Shown here piece after piece: positions 8,268 through 20,278 of a stretch of 23,955 nucleotides of DNA (position 1 is the first letter of the stretch; every line of letters begins with the position of its first letter). The translations under genes were made by a program, and so were the position numbers. Source of the stretch: a virus; the IMG/VR virus record IMGVR_UViG_3300027970_000142, positions 1-23,955 of that record, one strand, 5' to 3'. The notes under the pieces were generated by a model. The model worked only from the letters and a program-made list of their open reading frames with translations. It had not been told where the DNA came from and made no database searches.

Positions 8268-8300
8268 CGCGAACTTAGCTGTACTACGGGTGTCTTAAGT

Positions 8301-8380
8301 CTGAATTAATCAATTGATACCCGTAGCGCGTCTGCTCTGCCAGACGGTTTAGTTAAGCGTGCTCGGGCGCTTATTTTTTT
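8301..8380 (+). repeat. 80-bp direct repeat, copy 1 (left flank of brnTA)
   Basis: These 80 bases are identical to 9063-9142. Each copy contains the palindrome ATCAATTGAT, a hairpin CGTCTG-CTCTGC-CAGACG (8329-8346 here) and a terminator. In this copy only, ACCCGTAG (8319-8326) can also pair with CTACGGGT at 8284-8291 just outside the repeat. Confidence 0.95.
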
Positions 8381-8381
8381 T
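8354..8381 (+). terminator. Rho-independent terminator after the tail tube gene
   Basis: TAAGCG (8354-8359) pairs with CGCTTA (8368-8373) over an eight-base loop and is followed by eight T (8374-8381). It would end transcription of the tail genes before the oppositely oriented toxin-antitoxin cassette. Confidence 0.75.
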
Positions 8382-8401
8382 CTTGCCTATTTTTTGCGCG
8401 G

Positions 8402-8680
8402 TTAAACCAATTCGCGTTCTGCTGCTTCGATTACGCTATCGGGAACGCCGTGTTTTTTTAATGCGGCAATCAGTTTAGTTGTTGAACTTGCTAAATAACG
8501 TGATTCATCTTGCCGCATTCCTGCACTGATATATGATTTAAGCAAGGTTTGGTATCCGGTAAAGCCCTTGTGCGGGGCGATTGCCTTCATTGATTCAACC
8601 ACATCAACAGGAATACTTAGCGTAATTGACATCATGGGTCTGTCTTTATCTAGGCGTTTTTTCAAGCGTTCAGAAAGCAT
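8402..8680 (-). CDS. brnA: BrnA-type antitoxin (ribbon-helix-helix)
   Basis: A 92-residue antitoxin that neutralises BrnT and represses its own operon by binding DNA. The family signature is the stretch SITLSIPVDVVESMKAIAP followed by GFTGYQTLLKSYI, matching the BrnA ribbon-helix-helix. It lies downstream of the toxin and overlaps it by 11 bases, which is the usual brnT-brnA order. The cassette is on the minus strand among + strand structural genes, as expected of an autonomously expressed moron. Confidence 0.85.
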   Translation of the reverse strand: MLSERLKKRLDKDRPMMSITLSIPVDVVESMKAIAPHKGFTGYQTLLKSYISAGMRQDESRYLASSTTKLIAALKKHGVPDSVIEAAERELV

Positions 8681-8963
8681 AATGTATTTCCTCGTTAGGA
8701 TCGGTGCGGCGTGCAGAAATAATGCGAAGAGCCGTGTTTTCTATCTCAATGTGTACGACATAAAGCAATTGTCCAGTATTATCAAAACCAATAGCGGCAT
8801 TACGGCACTCACCTTGGCGCGATGCATCGAGCAGCACAAATAGGGGGTCGGCGAAAACGCTAGCGGCAACTTCAAAGCGGACGCCATGTTTACGCCAGTT
8901 TTTAGCCGCTTTGTCTTCATCCCAAACAAACTTATCGCCATCAATTTCAACATAAATATCCAT
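8670..8963 (-). CDS. brnT: BrnT-type toxin (RelE-like ribonuclease)
   Basis: A 97-residue toxin of the BrnT family, whose characterised members are RelE-fold ribonucleases that stop translation. Recognisable blocks are KFVWDEDKAAKNWRKHGV, FEVAASVFADPL, and LRIISARRTDPNEE near the C-terminus. All family blocks are intact, so it should be functional. No Shine-Dalgarno sequence precedes the ATG; the best promoter places the transcript start close to the ATG, so translation may be leaderless. It would stabilise the prophage or act in inter-phage competition; this is inference from other TA modules. Confidence 0.87.
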   Translation of the reverse strand: MDIYVEIDGDKFVWDEDKAAKNWRKHGVRFEVAASVFADPLFVLLDASRQGECRNAAIGFDNTGQLLYVVHIEIENTALRIISARRTDPNEEIHYAF

Positions 8964-9015: not shown

Positions 9016-9062
9016 AGGGCGCACGCAACACTTCTCATTATGCAGGCGTAACGTGATTAGGC

Positions 9063-9142
9063 CTGAATTAATCAATTGATACCCGTAGCGCGTCTGCTCT
9101 GCCAGACGGTTTAGTTAAGCGTGCTCGGGCGCTTATTTTTTT
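9063..9142 (+). repeat. 80-bp direct repeat, copy 2 (right flank of brnTA)
   Basis: Identical to 8301-8380 at an offset of 762 bases. Its terminator hairpin is at 9116-9135 with a T run to 9142, just upstream of the portal operon promoter. Perfect identity points to a recent duplication or to recombination between the copies. Confidence 0.95.
9116..9142 (+). terminator. Second copy of the tail-operon terminator
   Basis: The same TAAGCG / CGCTTA stem followed by seven T. It isolates the portal transcription unit from read-through. Confidence 0.7.
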
Positions 9143-9177
9143 CCTATTGAGGCCCTTGCTAGCTGTTTATTGTTTAA

Positions 9178-9199: not shown

Positions 9200-9232
9200 A
9201 AATCTATTATCACTCACTTGTCTCGCTTGCTT

Positions 9233-11809
9233 ATGGATAATGCTCAGCATACTGCTTTTAATTTTTTCGCACCAGAAGATGAGCGTATTGACGCGCTGGC
9301 GGCGTTACAGAAAACCTATCAACCCACGGATACTGAGTTATTGTCTGCTGAGGTCTTGGCCGAAATAACGGCGCTGGCTCATAATAATGACCCTCTTTTA
9401 AAGGCGATTGATCCTGCCTTAGTCCCTTTTCCCTCAGCTAATTCAGTACAGCATTCGCCTGGTATGCAGTCGGCTTTTTTAGATGAGTTTCAGCTAAATA
9501 GTCAGGGTGATTACTGGGAACGACCTTCAACCATAAGTTTTGATGGCTTACGCGCTATGGCGGCACAAACGCCTGTTTTAAATGCGGTTATTATGACTCG
9601 CGTAAGGCAGGTGCAGCGGTTTTGTCGGGTCTGTGAGAGCAATACTACATTGCCTGGGTTTGAAATCAGGCATGTGGATAGAAAGCATCAATTAACCGCC
9701 AGCGAGCACGAAAAAATTGCTCAGTACATTAGTTTTATTAGCCATTGTGGTAATGAATCTTCTGCCAGAGCCCGTAAAATTTTGCGGCGTGATAGCTTTG
9801 CGCAGTTTATGGGAAAAGCTACCCGAGATAGTTTACTTTTGGATTCTGTGGCGATAGAAACCGAGCGTGCCAAGGATCGTAGGCTTGGTATTGTGGGTTT
9901 ATATTTGGTTGATGGCGCAACGATACGGTTATGTCCAGAATCAGGCTATAGAAATAATAAAGATCTGTTTGCCGTGCAGGTTGTTAATGGCTTGGTGCGA
10001 ACGGCTTATGGCTATGATGATTTAATCTATGAGGCCAGAAATCCACGCTCAGATGTTTCGGCAATCGGCTATGGTTTGCCTGAAACTGAGCTGTTAGTGC
10101 GCGTGGTGACCAGTTTTTTAAATGCCATGACACTTAATAGTAATGTGTTTGATAAAAACTCGATTCCAAAAGGCATCTTGCATTTAAGCGGTAATTATTC
10201 GCAAGAAGATTTAAGTGCTTTTAAACGCTATTGGCAAGGTATGGTGAAAGGCTTGGATAGCCATTTAACTGTTCCTGTGTTGGTGTCAAAAGATCAGGAA
10301 TCGCGTGCCGCGTTTGAAAAGTTTGGCATTGATTTTAATGAGATGATGTTTGCTAAGTGGATGACTTTTTTAACTTCGCTGATTTGTGCCATTTATGGCA
10401 TGTCACCCAGTGAGATTAACTTTGATAGTTTTACTGGCGGCAGTACCAGTGCGTTAGGGGGTAATGATACCGCTGAAAAATTGGCGGCTTCTAAAGATAG
10501 CGGTTTACGTCCGTTGTTGTCTTATTTTGAGAACGTGCTAACCGATTATGTGGTGAATGAATTAGATAATGATTTTTGCTTTCGTTGGACGGGTTTGGAT
10601 GTTGAGGATCAAGATAAAAAGTATGAATTACGCAAAACCCTGTTGACGCTGAATGAATTACGCGCCGAAGAAGGTTATGAAAAAATTGATGGTGTCCTGG
10701 GCGATGCGCCCGTGGAGGCTTCTTTGTTGAATGCGTGGATGCAGTTGCAGGCACAGCAACAGCCAGAAGGTGAAGATACGCCGGAAGGTGAAATGGACAA
10801 TGACGATACCGACAGTCAATCGGGAAGTCTGGAAGCTGATAGGGAAGGCAGCGGTGAATTGAACAAGTCCTTCAGTCACCCTGAGGGCAGGCAGGGGCAA
10901 CGGGGCGGAAGTTTGCCTAAACAGGCGGTTGACATAGGTGATAGTCAAACGATCCCGCCAAGCTCAACTATTGCGACATATCAGCAAGCGCATGATTATT
11001 ATCAAGCTAACCTTGCCGGAAAATCGTTTTTAATTGATGTGAAAATAAAATCAAATTTACAGCCAATTGCCGTATTTTTTGATAGGCTCAACAGCCATAT
11101 TTATACGCGAGAAGCAAAAGAAGGAGAAACGCCCGACACCTGGGACAATAAAAAACACTATCGTGGGTCGCGTGTTTTTGATGCTAGTCGAGCCGTTCAC
11201 ATGGATAAGATTTTACCTACATTACAACAGCCGACTATTATTCTTGAGTCAAACGGACGTGATTTATATATAGGCAAAAAAATTGATATGGATAGGTTTG
11301 AGATTGTTGTTTTAACTGTGGATAGCGTTAATAAATGCACATTATCAACAGCACAACCAAGAAGCAAAGAAGAAGTCAATCGCCTTCGTGAAAGACTAAG
11401 ACCAGTAAAGCTTGGGCAATTTAGAAAAGCGTTTGAGGGTCTAGCCGAAGCGCAAAATCTGCGCTTGGCTAGTAGAACTGACTTACTGGCGTTAAGGGCA
11501 TCCACCCTGGGATTATCTGATAACCCCCCAGCGCCCACCTTACAGGTCCAGACCGAGGCGGATAAAAATATAGCCCTATATCCGCACCTTGTCAAATCCG
11601 CCACTGACGCACCCGCGACACTTGAGGGCATCTTATCTGGCGATTATCGCCCTGATTCGCCTGAGCAACTGCTTGATTTAATTGAAGCTGCTACCGCGCA
11701 ATTGCCAGACTCAGAACCGTTGCTTGTCAAAGCATTGGATGTTTGGCTTGAACATTATGATGACCGTATCGCCACGCCAAGCTTGCAAGCGGTTGCGCTT
11801 AATGGATAA
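9233..11809 (+). CDS. Portal protein with C-terminal PBECR-like domain fusion
   Basis: The portal forms the dodecameric vertex through which DNA enters and leaves the head. Residues about 85-510 carry portal features: an N-terminal clip/stem region, GLYLVDGATIRLCPE, SFLNAMTLNSNVFDKNSIPKG and GGSTSALGGNDTAEKLAASKDSGLRPLL. Residues about 510-575 are a Gln/Glu/Asp-rich linker. Residues about 583-725 form an extra domain related to the repeated domain of the next gene: SHIYT with His622, ASRAVHMDKILPTL, PTIILESNGRDLYIGKK, then STAQPRS. The 858-residue total is far above a normal portal. The start is uncertain: ATG 9233 is used, TTG 9218 is in frame, and neither has a ribosome binding site. Confidence 0.8.
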   Translation: MDNAQHTAFNFFAPEDERIDALAALQKTYQPTDTELLSAEVLAEITALAHNNDPLLKAIDPALVPFPSANSVQHSPGMQSAFLDEFQLNSQGDYWERPSTISFDGLRAMAAQTPVLNAVIMTRVRQVQRFCRVCESNTTLPGFEIRHVDRKHQLTASEHEKIAQYISFISHCGNESSARARKILRRDSFAQFMGKATRDSLLLDSVAIETERAKDRRLGIVGLYLVDGATIRLCPESGYRNNKDLFAVQVVNGLVRTAYGYDDLIYEARNPRSDVSAIGYGLPETELLVRVVTSFLNAMTLNSNVFDKNSIPKGILHLSGNYSQEDLSAFKRYWQGMVKGLDSHLTVPVLVSKDQESRAAFEKFGIDFNEMMFAKWMTFLTSLICAIYGMSPSEINFDSFTGGSTSALGGNDTAEKLAASKDSGLRPLLSYFENVLTDYVVNELDNDFCFRWTGLDVEDQDKKYELRKTLLTLNELRAEEGYEKIDGVLGDAPVEASLLNAWMQLQAQQQPEGEDTPEGEMDNDDTDSQSGSLEADREGSGELNKSFSHPEGRQGQRGGSLPKQAVDIGDSQTIPPSSTIATYQQAHDYYQANLAGKSFLIDVKIKSNLQPIAVFFDRLNSHIYTREAKEGETPDTWDNKKHYRGSRVFDASRAVHMDKILPTLQQPTIILESNGRDLYIGKKIDMDRFEIVVLTVDSVNKCTLSTAQPRSKEEVNRLRERLRPVKLGQFRKAFEGLAEAQNLRLASRTDLLALRASTLGLSDNPPAPTLQVQTEADKNIALYPHLVKSATDAPATLEGILSGDYRPDSPEQLLDLIEAATAQLPDSEPLLVKALDVWLEHYDDRIATPSLQAVALNG

Positions 11810-11818
11810 CAGCTCACT

Positions 11819-14800
11819 ATGACGATACACCACATCGAAGCCGCCGTCACGGCAATGAAAACCCGCTTTAAAACTGCGCCTGTGCCGGAGCGTATCCGCT
11901 TGGCAAAATGCTTGTTAGCCTTTGAGCGTTATTTAGCCAAAGCTAACCCAACGCATGACCTATTAGGGCGGTTTGCCGCGTCTGAGACGGGCAAGGCTGA
12001 AACTGCCCTCAGCACCTTGCCAGAGGCTGCGCAGTATTATCAAGATCACCTTGCTGGCGTATGGCGGCTAACGATTCAACGCAAAGCGGGTACTTTTGAT
12101 GTGAAGGTCAATTTTAATGAAAACCAAGACCATGCCTACACTAAGACCAACAAAGACACCGGAACGCGTGAATTTGACGCGGTAAGGGCTGAATTTATGC
12201 CGAAAATGCTTGATACCATTAGCGCACCTGATGTTATTTTGCAAAACGGTAACAGGGATTTATTTATCGAAAAACAAATGAACGGCGTGCATTATGCCGT
12301 GGTGTTGGAGTGGAAGGATTCAGCTAAGGAGTACCGCTTTAGATCGGCGCATTGTTGGGATAAGATGGAATATGACCGCAACAAAAAGAATTATACAAAG
12401 CCCGCTGTTAGGGGCAGAAAAGTAGGGCAAAAAAAAGCCCCAGAACGATTAAGTAAATCGTCTGGGGCTGACTCCACATTTACCCACTTGCGTGACACGT
12501 TTGAAAAGTCACAAACGCCTCCGACCTGTCAGAGCGCCCTTGTTCAACTCAATGAGCTGGGTGGGGAACTTGCCGAAACAAGTAGTTGCTATCCCAAGGT
12601 AAGTATTGATGGATTCACTGATTTTGTCAAGCCAATCGATTGGCAGACTATTGCACTTGAGCCCTTCAATAAAGCCAATAGCCATCATGATGGGCTGGGG
12701 CGGTTTGCCGCGTCTGAGACGGGCAAGGCTGAAACTGCCCTCAGCACCTTGCCAGAGGCTGCGCAGTATTATCAAGATCACCTTGCTGGCGTATGGCGGC
12801 TAACGATTCAACGCAAAGCGGGTACTTTTGATGTGAAGGTCAATTTTAATGAAAACCAAGACCATGCCTACACTAAGACCAACAAAGACACCGGAACGCG
12901 TGAATTTGACGCGGTAAGGGCTGAATTTATGCCGAAAATGCTTGATACCATTAGCGCACCTGATGTTATTTTGCAAAACGGTAACAGGGATTTATTTATC
13001 GAAAAACAAATGAACGGCGTGCATTATGCCGTGGTGTTGGAGTGGAAGGATTCAGCTAAGGAGTACCGCTTTAGATCGGCGCATTGTTGGGATAAAGAGG
13101 AATATGAAAGTAATCTTAAAAATTACCTACGTCCTGCACCACACGGTAAAAAAACTACACAAAAAAAAGCCCCAGAACGATTAAGTAAATCGTCTGGGGC
13201 TGACTCCACATTTACCCACTTGCGTGACTCGACTGCATTACTGCAATCGCCGCCGAAACATAACTGCACATCCGACGCGTCGTTGGTCAACTCATTAGAG
13301 CCAGGTGGGGAACTTGCCGAAACAAGTAGTTGCTATCCCAAGGTAAGTATTGACGGATTCACTGATTTTGTCAAGGCAATCGATTGGCAGACTATTGCAC
13401 TTGAACCCTTCAATAAAGCCAATAGCCATCATGATGGGCTGGGGCGGTTTGCTTCTGGACTTTTAGGTCAAGAAACTAATCTGCCATCTTCTGAGAGTAT
13501 TAGCACCTTACAAGAGGCTACGCATTACTATCAAAATCATATTGCTGGGATATGGCAAGTCACTATTCAGCGCAAGGCGGGCAATTTCTCAGCTAAATTG
13601 AATTTAAACGATAACAAAGATCACGCCTATACAAAAACAAATGAGGCAACAGGGCTGCGTGAGTTTGATGTAAAACGTGCAAGACTAATGCAGCACTTGT
13701 TTAATGCTATTACAAAGCCAGATGTTATCTTACAAAATGGTAGCAGGGATTTATTTATTGAAAAACAAATAGACGGACTGCATTATGCCGTGGTTTTAGA
13801 ATGGAAAGAATCAGCTAATGAATACCGCTTCAGATCAGCCCATCCTTGGAGTAAAGAAGAGTTTAATAACAACTTAAAAACGTATAATCGCCCATTAACA
13901 CGAGGCAAAAAAACAGATAAAAATATCTCGCCTAAACGACTAAGTAAGTCGTTAGGCGAGACCACCACATTTTCCCACTTGCGTGACTCGACTGCATTAC
14001 TGCAATCGCCGCCGAAACATAACTGCACATCCGACGCGTCGTTGGTCAACTCATTAGAGCCAGGGGACGCACCTGTATTATCAGGTATTGGCTGGCGTTT
14101 TGCTTTCACTGATAGTATTGACAGATTCACTGATTTTGTCAAGCCAATCGATTGGCAGACTATTGCACTTGAACCCCTCCAGAAGGCCAACAGCCACCAT
14201 GATGGGCTGGGGCGGTTTGCCAAAAACAATGATAACCATCCTTATCTGCCAAAATCTGATGACATTAATACCTTACAAGAAGCTAAAGCTTATTTTAGCA
14301 ACCACATTGCTGGGCATTGGCGTATCACTATCCATCGTAAATCGGGATGCTTTTCAGCGATAATAAATTTTAATGAAAATCAAAACCATGCCTATACAAA
14401 AGCGGACAAAACAACAGGTAAACGCAATTTTGACCAGCAACGTGCGAGGCTAATGCAGCACTTAATCGAGACCATTAGTAAGCCAGACATTATTCTTGAG
14501 AATGGAAATCGTGATGTGTACATCGAGAAACAAAAGACTGACTCTTATTACGCGGTAGTTTTGGAATGGCGGAACGATGCTAAGGAATACCGGTTTAGAT
14601 CGGCGCATTGTTGGGACAAAAAAGAATACGACAGAAACGTACAAACCTATCGCAGACCGAAGGCAAGAGGGTCTAAATTAGAAAAAAACAAAGCCCCAGA
14701 ACGGCTTAAAAAGTCGTTTGGGGCTTCCACCGCCTTTACCCGCTTGCGTGACATGATTGAAGAATTGCAACCATCACCAGATTGCCGGAGCGTCGTTGGT

Positions 14801-16774
14801 CAACTCAATGAGTCGGGCTGGGAACTTGCCGAAACAAGTAGTTGCTCTCCCACTATAAGTATTGACGGATTCACTGATTTTGTCAAGCCAATCGATTGGC
14901 AGACTATTGCACTTGAGCCCTTCAATAAAGCCAATAGCCATCATGATGGGCTGGGACGGTTTGCCGCGTCTGAAGGTACATCCGTCCGTTTATCCCCCAA
15001 TGGCAAGCCGTCTAACCTAACTGCCGAACAATGGGCAATGGTTAGAACGCCTGAGTTTAAAAGGTGGTTTGGTGATTGGGATTTAGCTGCGGCAAAGCCA
15101 ATAAGGGAAGCCTATAATTTTGACCAAGCGCGTAATGCTGTAAAGCAATTTCAAAATAAGCCTTTAGAAAATACGCAAACAGGCATGATCGTTACTTTGT
15201 CTCGCAATAATTTGGATAAGATGTTAAGCAGCAAAGCGGTTGGTAAGTCAGAATCAGCCGCAGGCCATTCATTAGCTGTAGCGAATGTGGATGATTTGTT
15301 TAGGAGGTCAGTCTTGGGGTGGAGTAAGCCAGATAGGGATGGAAATACCAACATAACGGCTATTCATCGATTTTTTGCACCGTTAAATGTCTATGACCAT
15401 GTAAGACTGGTGAAGATGACTGTGAAGGAATTTGCCAGTGATAACCAAGGCAACAAGGTCTATTCAGTAGAATCTATAGAATTTGATGAGTTAACCCCAG
15501 CCGCTCAATGGGTTGACGCGACAATCAGAGAAGATAATCTCGATCCGATTTCAATCCGCTCGGCTGAGGCTGTTATCAGTTTAGCTAAAAGAGTGCAAGA
15601 CTTCAAGGGTGATTCATCCAAAGATGTGGATGAAAACGGCGAACCGTTGGCGTCTAAACTTGCCTATTACCTAGCTGGAGGAGAAAACAACACTATCACC
15701 ACGACACCCACAACAAAGGAGCATCCCTTCCATAAAGCCCATAACCACGATACCCCGCACGATATTTTTGAAGCCCATGAGAACCCGTTTATCCGTGGCT
15801 TGGTTGAGGACTACTATGAAAGCGGCATGCTTAGAGTGTCGGCGCTTCGCGTTGCCTTAAACCAGTGGCTGGCGGGTCAGCGTCAGCAGCTTGATAAGGC
15901 TGGATTGTCGGTGCCTGAGGAGTTGCTGTATGCCAGTGTTTGGCATGACGCCGAGGCGGGGCGGGTGACGGATTATTTAGCGGGTATTCATCCTGAGGCC
16001 TTTACTGTTAAGGATTTAAGTTTATTGACACGGCTCTTGGTGCGTAACTATTTACCCTCCGATGTGCTGATTGATGAGGCACTGACTCAGAGTGCACAAA
16101 GTTTGATGATGGGGGCGGTGCAGGCGCATTGGCAAGCTAGCCATGAGGAGTCTATTTCGTTAGCGCAGGTGGCGGCATTACGCGCTACGCTGCCCACTAC
16201 TTTAGAGGCTGTGGTGCAGGCTTTGCGGTTAGCGCCCGTGGCTAAAGCCTGTTTGGATTATGGTGCGGTGCGTGCGGCGGAAAATATTGTTGCGTTATCG
16301 AGGGAGGCGCGTGCGTCTATTCAACAGGTATTAATGGCGCATGCCTTAAAAAAACAGTCAGGCGATCATACGGCGACACCTCAATATTTGGAGCAACGCT
16401 TAGGCGATACGTTTGCTAACTTAAACCGCGATTGGCGACGTATAGCGTTAACAGAAACGGGTGAAATGTCTTTGCAGGGTTTTGTTGCGGCGCAAGCTCT
16501 TGGCACAAAACTGAAACGCATTGAGCAGTATCGCGGTGCCTGTGGCTTTTGTAAAAAAGTAGACGGCATGGTGATGGAGGTGGTTGATCCTGAACTGCCC
16601 GTTAAAGATGGGCGCACGCAGATATGGGTAGGTAAAACTAATATAGACCGCGCTAGCAGCGCACGAAAACGCACTGAGGCGGGCTTGGTGGCGAGAGCTG
16701 AGCATGAGCTATGGTGGTTGGCGGCGGGGGTTATTCATCCGCATTGCCGTGGTCTTTGGGTGCGTGTTGAGTAA
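11819..16774 (+). CDS. Giant MuF-type head morphogenesis protein with four tandem PBECR-like domains and an LPD3-like domain
   Basis: A 1651-residue polyvalent protein. Five HDxxGRFA motifs (near residues 46, 290, 538, 794 and 1042) begin modules. Four modules hold a roughly 120-residue domain resembling phage Barnase-EndoU-ColicinE5/D-RelE-like (PBECR) nucleases. Conserved in all four: HAYT (His105, His349, His602, His857), P-D-V/I-I-L, NRD or SRD plus IEKQ, YAVVLEW and EYRFRSAH. The fifth module starts LTAEQWAMVRTPEFKRWFGDW and continues as an LPD3-like domain (about 1100-1260). The C-terminus (about 1310-1651) is Mu gpF-like: DWRRIALTETGE, CGFC (1575-1578) and HPHCRG (Cys1643). MuF proteins attach to the portal inside the head. 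Putative nuclease effectors carried in the virion are inferred. Confidence 0.8.
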   Translation: MTIHHIEAAVTAMKTRFKTAPVPERIRLAKCLLAFERYLAKANPTHDLLGRFAASETGKAETALSTLPEAAQYYQDHLAGVWRLTIQRKAGTFDVKVNFNENQDHAYTKTNKDTGTREFDAVRAEFMPKMLDTISAPDVILQNGNRDLFIEKQMNGVHYAVVLEWKDSAKEYRFRSAHCWDKMEYDRNKKNYTKPAVRGRKVGQKKAPERLSKSSGADSTFTHLRDTFEKSQTPPTCQSALVQLNELGGELAETSSCYPKVSIDGFTDFVKPIDWQTIALEPFNKANSHHDGLGRFAASETGKAETALSTLPEAAQYYQDHLAGVWRLTIQRKAGTFDVKVNFNENQDHAYTKTNKDTGTREFDAVRAEFMPKMLDTISAPDVILQNGNRDLFIEKQMNGVHYAVVLEWKDSAKEYRFRSAHCWDKEEYESNLKNYLRPAPHGKKTTQKKAPERLSKSSGADSTFTHLRDSTALLQSPPKHNCTSDASLVNSLEPGGELAETSSCYPKVSIDGFTDFVKAIDWQTIALEPFNKANSHHDGLGRFASGLLGQETNLPSSESISTLQEATHYYQNHIAGIWQVTIQRKAGNFSAKLNLNDNKDHAYTKTNEATGLREFDVKRARLMQHLFNAITKPDVILQNGSRDLFIEKQIDGLHYAVVLEWKESANEYRFRSAHPWSKEEFNNNLKTYNRPLTRGKKTDKNISPKRLSKSLGETTTFSHLRDSTALLQSPPKHNCTSDASLVNSLEPGDAPVLSGIGWRFAFTDSIDRFTDFVKPIDWQTIALEPLQKANSHHDGLGRFAKNNDNHPYLPKSDDINTLQEAKAYFSNHIAGHWRITIHRKSGCFSAIINFNENQNHAYTKADKTTGKRNFDQQRARLMQHLIETISKPDIILENGNRDVYIEKQKTDSYYAVVLEWRNDAKEYRFRSAHCWDKKEYDRNVQTYRRPKARGSKLEKNKAPERLKKSFGASTAFTRLRDMIEELQPSPDCRSVVGQLNESGWELAETSSCSPTISIDGFTDFVKPIDWQTIALEPFNKANSHHDGLGRFAASEGTSVRLSPNGKPSNLTAEQWAMVRTPEFKRWFGDWDLAAAKPIREAYNFDQARNAVKQFQNKPLENTQTGMIVTLSRNNLDKMLSSKAVGKSESAAGHSLAVANVDDLFRRSVLGWSKPDRDGNTNITAIHRFFAPLNVYDHVRLVKMTVKEFASDNQGNKVYSVESIEFDELTPAAQWVDATIREDNLDPISIRSAEAVISLAKRVQDFKGDSSKDVDENGEPLASKLAYYLAGGENNTITTTPTTKEHPFHKAHNHDTPHDIFEAHENPFIRGLVEDYYESGMLRVSALRVALNQWLAGQRQQLDKAGLSVPEELLYASVWHDAEAGRVTDYLAGIHPEAFTVKDLSLLTRLLVRNYLPSDVLIDEALTQSAQSLMMGAVQAHWQASHEESISLAQVAALRATLPTTLEAVVQALRLAPVAKACLDYGAVRAAENIVALSREARASIQQVLMAHALKKQSGDHTATPQYLEQRLGDTFANLNRDWRRIALTETGEMSLQGFVAAQALGTKLKRIEQYRGACGFCKKVDGMVMEVVDPELPVKDGRTQIWVGKTNIDRASSARKRTEAGLVARAEHELWWLAAGVIHPHCRGLWVRVE
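11966..12363 (+). repeat. 398-bp exact direct repeat, copy 1 (PBECR-like domain 1)
   Basis: Base for base the same as 12698-13095, by direct comparison. It covers the GRFA motif and the whole first putative nuclease domain. Identity ends abruptly within the C-terminal part of the domain, where copy 1 reads DKMEYDRNKKN and copy 2 reads DKEEYESNLKN. Confidence 0.93.
12436..12469 (+). other. Conserved coding-sequence hairpin 1
   Basis: AGCCCCAG, bulged A, ACGATT, loop AAGTA, AATCGT, CTGGGGCT: 8 bp, one bulged A, 6 bp and a 5-base loop. It is preceded by eight A. It encodes APERLSKSSGA between domain 1 and its junction. Three further hairpins of the same architecture follow in this gene. Confidence 0.85.
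12698..13095 (+). repeat. 398-bp exact direct repeat, copy 2 (PBECR-like domain 2)
   Basis: Second copy at an offset of 732 bp (244 codons), so the reading frame is preserved. The linker after this copy is shared with module 3 rather than module 1: 13215-13305 equals 13974-14064 over 91 bp, so the array is a mosaic. Confidence 0.93.
13168..13201 (+). other. Conserved coding-sequence hairpin 2
   Basis: Identical in sequence to hairpin 1 (offset 732) although the bases just before it differ. It is also preceded by eight A. Confidence 0.85.
13215..13305 (+). repeat. 91-bp exact direct repeat in the linker, copy 1
   Basis: Identical to 13974-14064. It encodes the linker THLRDSTALLQSPPKHNC onward to NSLEPG between module 2 and its junction. 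Module 1 lacks this version of the linker. Confidence 0.9.
13927..13960 (+). other. Conserved coding-sequence hairpin 3, compensated
   Basis: CTCGCCTA, bulged A, ACGACT, loop AAGTA, AGTCGT, TAGGCGAG. Many stem bases differ from hairpins 1 and 2, yet every pair is restored on the other side, and the bulged A and the loop are kept. Confidence 0.85.
13974..14064 (+). repeat. 91-bp exact direct repeat in the linker, copy 2
   Basis: Second copy of 13215-13305, here after the diverged module 3. Its right end passes into a different sequence carrying ACCTG-TATTAT-CAGGT, where modules 1, 2 and 4 carry ACTTG-CCGAAA-CAAGT. Confidence 0.9.
14691..14726 (+). other. Conserved coding-sequence hairpin 4
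   Basis: AAGCCCCAG, bulged A, ACGGCT, loop TAAAA, AGTCGT, TTGGGGCTT. The same architecture is kept with two G-T oppositions (14699/14718 and 14704/14714). These pair as G-U only in + strand RNA and would be C-A mismatches in the antisense strand. Confidence 0.75.
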
Positions 16775-18106: not shown

Positions 18107-18169
18107 GGTTGCTCTTCTCAGTTGCACGACTATGACACACGTGTATTGTTAATATTTAAGGAGACTATA

Positions 18170-18946
18170 ATGGGACTTTTAAAAAGATCGGAAGCGTCAA
18201 TTGAAGGGTTAACTATTAAGCTTGGTGCCTTAGCGCAAGCAGATGCGGCGTTAACGTCGCGTATTGATAGTTTGGGTAATGTGTTTAACTATGTAAACAC
18301 CCTTGCGGGGGGCTCTACTTCTGCTGCGGCCTTTGATTTGTCAGCTTTGACGCAACGCGATACGGGCGACTATTACAAAGTAAGCACTTCTGGTTGGTTT
18401 GCTGTCGGTGCAAGTGCACCTTTTATGGCAAATGCTAATGATGGCTTAGTGTGGAATGCTTTAGCGGGTGTTGACATTATCGACAACACTAACTCAACCG
18501 TTGCTGGCACTGCTGAGTTTATCTCGGTAACGGGTTCAGCTGATACAGGTTTTTTGGTAGATATTGATACTGCGTTTAAAGGCAGGGTAAGTGCTGTAGA
18601 GACTGGTTTAGGTGATGAAATCACTAATCGTGGTGTTGCCATTACTAATTTGGATGCTTCGTTAAAAACCTATGCTGATGCGGCTGCGGCGGCGGTAGTT
18701 ATTTCAACCAGTGTTGAATCTTTAGTAGTAAGCAATGATCGCATTGTGTTAACGCATAAACCTAAAGATGGTGTAAACACTATTTTAAACTTTGGCACGG
18801 TGCGCTATATCGACAGCAATAATATTGCTTATGATGCGCCTGTTTCTATCGATAGCACTGATGTATCAGGAAAAACCTTGGTGATTGGTGTGGATACTTC
18901 AGGTCAGTGGGCTGGTTTTACTGTATTAGTGCAATATCAGCATTAA
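18170..18946 (+). CDS. Probable virion structural protein, 258 aa
   Basis: Not assigned to a family. The N-terminal 40 residues are helical with a coiled-coil look (SEASIEGLTIKLGALAQADAALTSRID), and the remainder is Ala/Thr/Asp/Val-rich beta sequence (DTGDYYKVSTSGWFAVG, TNSTVAGTAEFISVTGS, VRYIDSNNIAYDAPVSIDS), with a second helical segment at about 140-175. This resembles trimeric fibre or head-decoration proteins. ATG 18170 is chosen because AAGGAG ends seven bases upstream; an upstream in-frame ATG at 18122 has no such site. A strong terminator follows its stop. Confidence 0.6.
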   Translation: MGLLKRSEASIEGLTIKLGALAQADAALTSRIDSLGNVFNYVNTLAGGSTSAAAFDLSALTQRDTGDYYKVSTSGWFAVGASAPFMANANDGLVWNALAGVDIIDNTNSTVAGTAEFISVTGSADTGFLVDIDTAFKGRVSAVETGLGDEITNRGVAITNLDASLKTYADAAAAAVVISTSVESLVVSNDRIVLTHKPKDGVNTILNFGTVRYIDSNNIAYDAPVSIDSTDVSGKTLVIGVDTSGQWAGFTVLVQYQH

Positions 18947-18962
18947 GCCGATATTTTTAGTT

Positions 18963-18999
18963 AACACGGCGCACAGAGTTGTCTGTGCGCCGTGTTTTT
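18963..18999 (+). terminator. Strong rho-independent terminator
   Basis: A perfect 15-bp stem (18963-18977 with 18982-18996), loop GTTG, and T tract to 18999. It closes the unit that starts at promoter candidate 3. Confidence 0.95.
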
Positions 19000-19270: not shown

Positions 19271-19361
19271 GTAGACCGGATAAGCGCTAGCGTCATCCGG
19301 CAAATAACCCAAAGGTGCATGACGCTATCGCTTATTCGCCCTGCGTTTCTATGCGGTCTAC
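19271..19361. repeat. REP/BIME-like inverted repeat pair
   Basis: GTAGACCG (19271-19278) and CGGTCTAC (19354-19361) form the outer arms. Inside, CGGATAAGCGCTAGCGTCAT (19277-19296) matches the reverse complement of 19319-19338 at 18 of 20 positions. The left arm also forms its own hairpin, CCGGAT at 19276-19281 with ATCCGG at 19295-19300. This is the layout of bacterial REP pairs, so a host-type repeat has probably moved into the phage between the two divergent promoters. Confidence 0.65.
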
Positions 19362-19394
19362 ACGGTAAGCTTTTCCACCGTTATTGCTTTATAG

Positions 19395-19413
19395 GCTGTC
19401 GTGACAGTAGTCT
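19395..19413 (+). promoter_or_regulatory. Candidate phage promoter (site 5)
   Basis: GCTGTCGTGACAG (19395-19407) followed by TAGTCT (19408-19413). TTGCTT lies 18 bases before the -10 box. Transcription would start at about the ATG of the next gene (19421). Confidence 0.5.
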
Positions 19414-19420
19414 ACTAGCT

Positions 19421-20278
19421 ATGAACATTATCAATACTACTCAGCATTTACTTACTCAGCTTCCTGATTACCTTGTGGTAGGCGGGTTACTTAAAGCTAC
19501 GCCTGCCGAAGAGAATGGCGCGCGCTATTTGTATTTTGAAGCGTCTAATGAAGAGGTTGATCATCAAAATGAAATAATCCTTGCCAAGGCCTTAAGCGAT
19601 TCTGCTGAGTATTATTTGCGCCATGGCAATGTTGATTTGTCGCATTATTCTATTTTAGGGGCAAAATCAGGGCTTGCTAATTTTATGGAATATGAGATTG
19701 GTAAGCCGATCGATGTGCAGCTAAATAATACTAAAACTTTTGTAAAGGTGCAGTTGTATACGGGTGAATCAGCCATGGCTAAAAATGCCAATATGGTTTG
19801 GGATTCTTTAACCCGACAACAGCCGCCCAGCCGTTGGTATCCTTCGGTGGGCGGTGTGGTGTTGTCAAAATCGGTGCGTATCGAACCCAGTACGGGCGAG
19901 AAGATTGCCGTGGTGGATAAGGTGCGCTGGAATAATATTGCGTTAGATCGTTGTCCCGTTAATAAAACTGTGCCTGAGGTGTCGGCTGCGCCTGTAGGGG
20001 TGTTTGCTAAAAGCCTGAATGGCTTTGTGATAAAAGCGTTAACCGCAGACGCACAAGGCGCTGATGTGGCGAATTTAACAGGCGGTGCAGCGTTACGCAT
20101 AGCGTCTTTATACGGTAAGCCTTACGCTTATTATCGTAATCTGTTAGCCAAGCAGTTAAGAACTCAGACCTTGTCGCCGCATCATATCACTCAGTATGCA
20201 CAGCATCAGTTTGGTTTTACGACCAGCGAAGCGCAGGCTTTCCAGAACCAATTTTTAACCGATCTTAACCGTGCATGA
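19421..20278 (+). CDS. Prohead-protease-like protein
   Basis: A 285-residue protein first in the capsid gene group. The segment YLYFEASNEEVDHQNEIILAKAL resembles the entry of phage prohead proteases; His75 in VDLSHYS and Ser142 in RWYPSVGG fit the His and Ser positions of the HK97-type fold. It would cut scaffold and capsid during head maturation. The last 70 residues are an additional helical region containing LTGGAALRIASL (219-230), nearly repeated at the N-terminus of the capsid protein. ATG 19421 has no ribosome binding site; a longer frame upstream runs through the promoter motif and is not favoured. Scaffold and capsid genes follow. Confidence 0.6.
   Translation: MNIINTTQHLLTQLPDYLVVGGLLKATPAEENGARYLYFEASNEEVDHQNEIILAKALSDSAEYYLRHGNVDLSHYSILGAKSGLANFMEYEIGKPIDVQLNNTKTFVKVQLYTGESAMAKNANMVWDSLTRQQPPSRWYPSVGGVVLSKSVRIEPSTGEKIAVVDKVRWNNIALDRCPVNKTVPEVSAAPVGVFAKSLNGFVIKALTADAQGADVANLTGGAALRIASLYGKPYAYYRNLLAKQLRTQTLSPHHITQYAQHQFGFTTSEAQAFQNQFLTDLNRA

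Follow-up and report, generated by a model that had tools for sequence, protein, structure and literature searches.

We identified, in the head gene cluster of a contractile-tailed phage, a minor head protein that carries four tandem PBECR-like modules ahead of its head domain and that is probably a virion-borne protein with four putative RNase domains of the BECR fold, which would be injected and would cut RNA early in infection. The window analyzed here is the whole of a 23,955-base virus record (IMGVR_UViG_3300027970_000142), which represents part of the phage and includes recognizable genes for terminase, tail sheath, portal, head protease, and major head protein. The open reading frame (ORF) of interest (11819–16774, plus strand; 1651 aa) encodes a 35-aa lead, the four modules, an LPD3 domain, and the minor head protein. 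A preliminary description of this DNA, made from the sequence, reported the array and overlooked a conserved hairpin in each cassette, the homogenization of the linkers, and the LPD3 domain.

The four modules represent residues 36–1031 of the ORF and are all in frame on the plus strand; they include module 1 (244 codons, 11966–12697; folded core at about 12011–12415), module 2 (248 codons, 12698–13441), module 3 (256 codons, 13442–14209), and module 4 (248 codons, 14210–14953). Module starts correspond to GRFA codons at 11966, 12698, 13442, and 14210, while a fifth GRFA at 14954 ends the array; repeat finding at the nucleotide level recovered the same four copies, with spacings of 732, 759, and 765 nt. 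These positions confirm the four in-frame modules of 244–256 codons in the preliminary description, as well as the start of its array (11966), but not the end (14730), as the array reaches 14953 if the last linker is included. Each module consists of a folded core of about 140 aa and a disordered linker of about 100 aa with HDGLGRFA at its end; all four modules retain HAYTK, FRSAH, and the invariant R and K residues, such that the putative active residues are indeed kept in each. Modules 1 and 2, previously described as identical, are identical in their DNA at 11966–12363 (398 nt) and 12428–12496, but not in the stretch between these segments or in the linker, and their protein identity over the whole module is 89%; the variable linker of module 2 is partly identical to that of module 3. 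Four-module versions of the same protein, with 3–15 codon differences, were found in IMG/VR contigs from three other samples; the repeat is therefore real, and an assembly artefact was ruled out as its source.

The motif HDxLGRFA is found at 11954–11977 and in four further places, and opens every module as well as the LPD3 part. This motif may represent a processing or targeting signal, and cleavage by the prohead protease at HDGLGRFA may be considered as an idea; HDGLGRFA was rejected as a known processing motif, as it had no phage match, was absent from the polyvalent proteins compared, and yielded no paper in a literature search.

Assignment of the modules to the BECR fold is the best available one and is suggested by several concurring weak signals from profiles and model, none of which is proof alone. 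All seven copies compared (the four modules, a copy in the portal protein, and the copies of two related lineages, L097 and L109) match the same profile region of PBECR2 or PBECR3 (E values from 1.5e-4 to 0.11), but single copies always score below the curated cut-off (22.4 vs. 27.1 for PBECR2 and 20.7 vs. 30 for PBECR3 with the best single module). The whole protein exceeds both cut-offs (48.8 bits for PBECR2 and 42.6 bits for PBECR3), but does so as the sum of four repeats; because X25 and MATH profiles likewise pass at the whole-protein level by repeat summing, these whole-protein Pfam scores are considered inflated. A PBECR2 family search of three records and control genomes yielded no match anywhere, controls included, and is therefore uninformative. 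An AF2 model of module 4, built with six related sequences, presents a core (residues 10–150) with pLDDT of about 75–96 and a linker (residues 153–253) with pLDDT < 50, suggesting an arrangement of beads on a string; helices at residues 76–80 and 82–90 are followed by strands at 94–98, 101–109, 112–121, and 126–136. In the structural comparison of this core, BECR toxins lead the neighbors, with rows 1–5 and 7–10 representing BrnT, two RelE proteins, Cami1, a CDI toxin, and HigB, but with Z ≤ 4.0 and with no significant match when Foldseek was run with the module model. The PBECR-like reading in the preliminary description, which proposed profile searches with each domain and structure prediction as checks, is partly supported. 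Searches with the modules yielded no match among the sequences of solved structures and no significant relatives among isolated phages. Profile comparison revealed no homology to the BrnT encoded by the phage itself, as the modules did not align to this protein.

PBECR domains are characterized by an alcoholic residue in strand 4 and by a histidine (an arginine in one family) in the N-terminal helix. In the model, the Ser of FRSAH, an alcoholic residue, is located within strand 126–136 in modules 1–4 and in L097 and L109, with a Thr in the portal copy; active-site candidates for the N-terminal helix are the invariant H60 (short helix 58–61) and R78 (helix 76–80). The four modules and the two relative lineages show no variation at H, YT, R, K, or the Ser of FRSAH, which, along with a dN/dS of about 0.1 in the cores, argues against the modules being RNA-binding or structural beads without catalysis, in an array that would tether or compact nucleic acid in the head. 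We consider this non-catalytic alternative rather unlikely, even though the PBECR-type domain of phage Mu gp30 is regarded as inactive (Iyer et al., PMC5512222), the tandem copy number would suit avidity, and the sub-threshold X25 and MATH matches, which reveal how poorly the N-terminal strands are classified, are consistent with it.

The cores of modules 1 or 2 differ from that of module 3 by a silent divergence of >2, with dN/dS of 0.10–0.12, and silent sites are saturated in comparisons of these cores with that of module 4, indicating that the cores are old and constrained; the strong divergence of modules 3 and 4 without decay, as previously described, is thus borne out. Silent divergence is only 0.05–0.32 in a 32-codon constant part of the linker. 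The corresponding linker repeats, which are 89–90% identical, are located on the plus strand at 12595–12709 (after module 1, ending in HHDGLGRFA), 13339–13453, 14107–14221, and 14851–14965. A sliding comparison identified module 2 as a mosaic, equal to module 1 in the core and to module 3 in the variable linker, with a constant linker that equals those of nearly all modules; in a variant of the array found in contig L005, differences are mainly in and adjoining the linkers. Together, the mosaic and the variant suggest gene conversion or unequal crossing-over with the linkers as exchange points, and these sequence comparisons point to cassettes that recombine through near-identical linkers. Purifying selection combined with linker recombination fits all three explanations previously offered for the array (i.e., different targets, dose increase, and an immunity race). 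Dose or recent conversion is enough to account for modules 1 and 2, whose cores are identical, while a difference in target is conceivable for modules 3 and 4.

Each cassette also contains a 34-nt hairpin, and six copies place it at the same distance of exactly 98 nt from the FRSAH start, namely module 1 (12436–12469, 14 pairs), module 2 (13168–13201), module 3 (13927–13960), module 4 (14692–14725), L097, and L109; at the homologous site, the portal copy presents a strong hairpin whose sequence is unrelated (11441–11472). Between modules 1 and 3, six of the 14 pairs differ on both sides, with pairing preserved throughout. In an alignment of the five distinct hairpin sequences, 98.6% of cells are paired, and the observed covariation was reached in none of 500 shuffles; only 0–31 of 2000 synonymous-codon shuffles per copy were as stable as the hairpin. 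A by-product of coding was ruled out by these synonymous shuffles and by the double changes. A frameshift element composed of an A run and the hairpin was also ruled out, because module 3 and L097 keep the hairpin although their A run is not slippery. A DNA pattern for the hairpin, largely unspecified between the arms, matched 12 viral contigs, all of which encode the domain, and recovered the L109 lineage, which protein searches had not returned. Based on the agreement of covariation, shuffles, and pattern search, the hairpin is most likely selected as nucleic acid. Two matches to the pattern in bacterial genomes, both without the domain, were taken as chance, and a protein search found no relatives in bacterial genomes.

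Two readings of the role of this hairpin were considered, both of which are compatible with a virion-borne RNase array. It is possible, though we hold this tentatively, that the hairpin acts in the sense mRNA as a processing, pausing, or autoregulatory site, perhaps as a target of the domain's own putative RNase. The fixed 98-nt distance from FRSAH in six copies and the presence in module 4, L097, and L109 of G-U pairs, which pair on the plus strand only, are consistent with this reading, whereas most copies of the hairpin are about as stable on one strand as on the other, and an Rfam search with the hairpin found nothing relevant among known RNA families. More doubtful is the reading of each cassette as an antisense sRNA gene, in which transcription from a linker promoter on the minus strand would stop at the hairpin, acting as an intrinsic terminator, and yield an RNA of about 170 nt directed against the mRNA of the toxin, on the model of type I toxin-antitoxin systems. 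A T-rich run follows the hairpin on the minus strand in modules 1–4, L097, and L109, but it is partly explained by lysine codons and is missing from the portal hairpin; a strict minus-strand scan for terminators (stem plus T run) singled out modules 1 and 3 and L097 (1–2 of 300 shuffles), while module 4, whose hairpin is weaker on the minus strand (−16.2 vs. −20.8 kcal/mol), and the portal copy did not stand out. Promoter-like TTGACA boxes are found upstream in the four modules, the portal copy, L097, and L109, including TTGACA-17-AATACT in the module 1 linker (12602–12630, minus strand) and boxes in the other linkers (13346–13374, 14114–14142, and 14858–14886, minus strand); the evidence for these linker boxes is weak, and such boxes are not rarer than expected from synonymous shuffles (7–18%), the portal copy (14 of 5000) being the one exception.

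Downstream of the array, the ORF encodes an LPD3 domain (15125–15463, plus strand; residues 1103–1215; E = 1.3e-17) and the minor head protein domain (15728–16771, plus strand; residues 1304–1651), which stands alone in relatives. Stand-alone proteins of about 360–390 residues that adjoin the portal in phages of about 90 kb, including Bordetella phage PHB04 and Aeromonas phage ST4, share about 42% identity with the head domain; the relative in Yersinia phage fHe-Yen8-01 was labeled as particle-associated by its depositors. In the window and in relatives, the gene for this domain closely follows the portal gene in the head cluster. AF2 confidently predicted a helical bundle for the domain (pLDDT 91.5), along with a small part at the C-terminus. 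Its position and its Cys/His-rich end make the domain MuF-like; however, the Pfam MuF profile (PF04233) did not match the head domain in the window, and matched one of eight relatives at E = 0.074 and L114 at E = 0.18, while comparison of its fold with solved structures returned helical bundles only, with no MuF fold recognized. As the Pfam MuF profile was not reached and the fold search was uninformative, we refer to the domain as a minor head protein; the carrier, described previously as a MuF protein, is a portal-adjacent minor head protein with a relative labeled as particle-associated. In a related lineage, the minor head protein is split by an intein-like insert that carries a HINT domain and a Vsr/DUF559-like endonuclease (L114, 10779–13004; L113, 6730–8103).

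The portal protein (9218–11809, plus strand) itself ends in a PBECR-like domain (10961–11440), which is about 29% identical to the modules and keeps H, YT, R, and K, with STAQ in place of RSAH. The L097 and L109 lineages carry a single such domain, fused to the portal, with the L097 copy 51–58% identical to the modules; this suggests that the head protein either has a derived array or gained it as a lineage-specific acquisition. Among 76 distinct head-protein sequences surveyed, which include near-identical contigs of this phage, no other relative carries the array; the long N-terminal extension (1300 residues) is found in this phage only, with the next longest reaching 138 residues. A separate protein near the portal-borne PBECR domain of L097 (9286–10593) joins LPD3 to an ADP-ribosyltransferase domain (ART-PolyVal).

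Two further features of the window were observed. A BrnT toxin gene (PF04365, E = 3.1e-24) and an antitoxin-like gene are located in the head cluster just before the portal gene (8402–8963, minus strand), flanked by an 89-nt direct repeat (8295–8383 and 9057–9145, 97% identical) that ends in a terminator-like hairpin; this pair looks like a cassette insertion. A very strong intrinsic terminator with a 15-pair stem (18963–18996, plus strand) is found between the genes at 18122–18946 and 19319–20278.

Previous work has described PBECR domains fused to portal and MuF proteins, as well as proteins in which several PBECR domains rearrange, and has identified LPD3 and portal/MuF fusion as marks of injected polyvalent proteins; PBECR domains of head-associated proteins are predicted RNases that are injected with the DNA (PMC5512222). 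By analogy, the 1300-residue N-terminal extension, with four RelE/BrnT-like domains of the PBECR type on disordered linkers followed by LPD3, would be built into the head beside the portal, anchored by the head domain, and the modules would enter the cell together with the phage DNA. There, the domains may cut host or defense RNA early, either for host takeover or to disarm an RNA-based defense. The array would have grown by duplication and cassette exchange via the near-identical linkers, with each core kept by selection, and the hairpin of each cassette probably controls its expression. No immunity gene was found to adjoin the array; regulation of expression is therefore an attractive means of control, for which the hairpin is a candidate. 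Each cassette might even represent a protein-and-RNA unit, composed of a virion-delivered putative BECR RNase and a hairpin that, either as the terminator of an antisense RNA or as an mRNA site, restrains the toxin in the producing cell, a proposal that we regard as speculative; if true, cassette amplification would multiply toxin and control together.

The array differs from known systems in several respects. The PBECR polyvalent proteins (Iyer et al. 2017, PMC5512222) similarly carry predicted BECR RNases on portal/MuF or large head-associated proteins with LPD domains, whereas four tandem copies of one subtype with near-identical linkers are found here, N-terminal to a head protein, with each single module below every PBECR cut-off. 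Helicobacter jhp1044-type polyvalent proteins also contain several PBECR domains and show duplication and rearrangement (PMC5512222), including an H. canis prophage protein with two PBECR1 stretches and LPD3, but they combine different PBECR subtypes with ParB and further domains and have no detectable similarity to the modules. MuF polymorphic toxins (Jamet et al. 2017, PMC5576092) likewise place a toxin-like domain on a portal-adjacent minor head protein; however, their MuF domain is N-terminal and their toxin C-terminal, while this order is reversed here (modules at residues 36–1031, head domain at residues 1304–1651), with no downstream immunity gene identified. BrnT, RelE, and HigB toxins, the leading structural neighbors of the module core, differ in being small stand-alone type II toxins with protein antitoxins, with no sequence similarity to the modules detected.

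The tandem array of one PBECR subtype, in which linkers are homogenized and every copy has a covarying hairpin, represents a new elaboration of the published PBECR theme. It provides a concrete case for addressing why a single effector domain is repeated within a virion protein of a phage, and combines, in one array, old, selected cores with shared linkers that serve as exchange points. The covarying hairpin in each copy suggests how such cassettes may be regulated, a question raised by the lack of an evident immunity protein.
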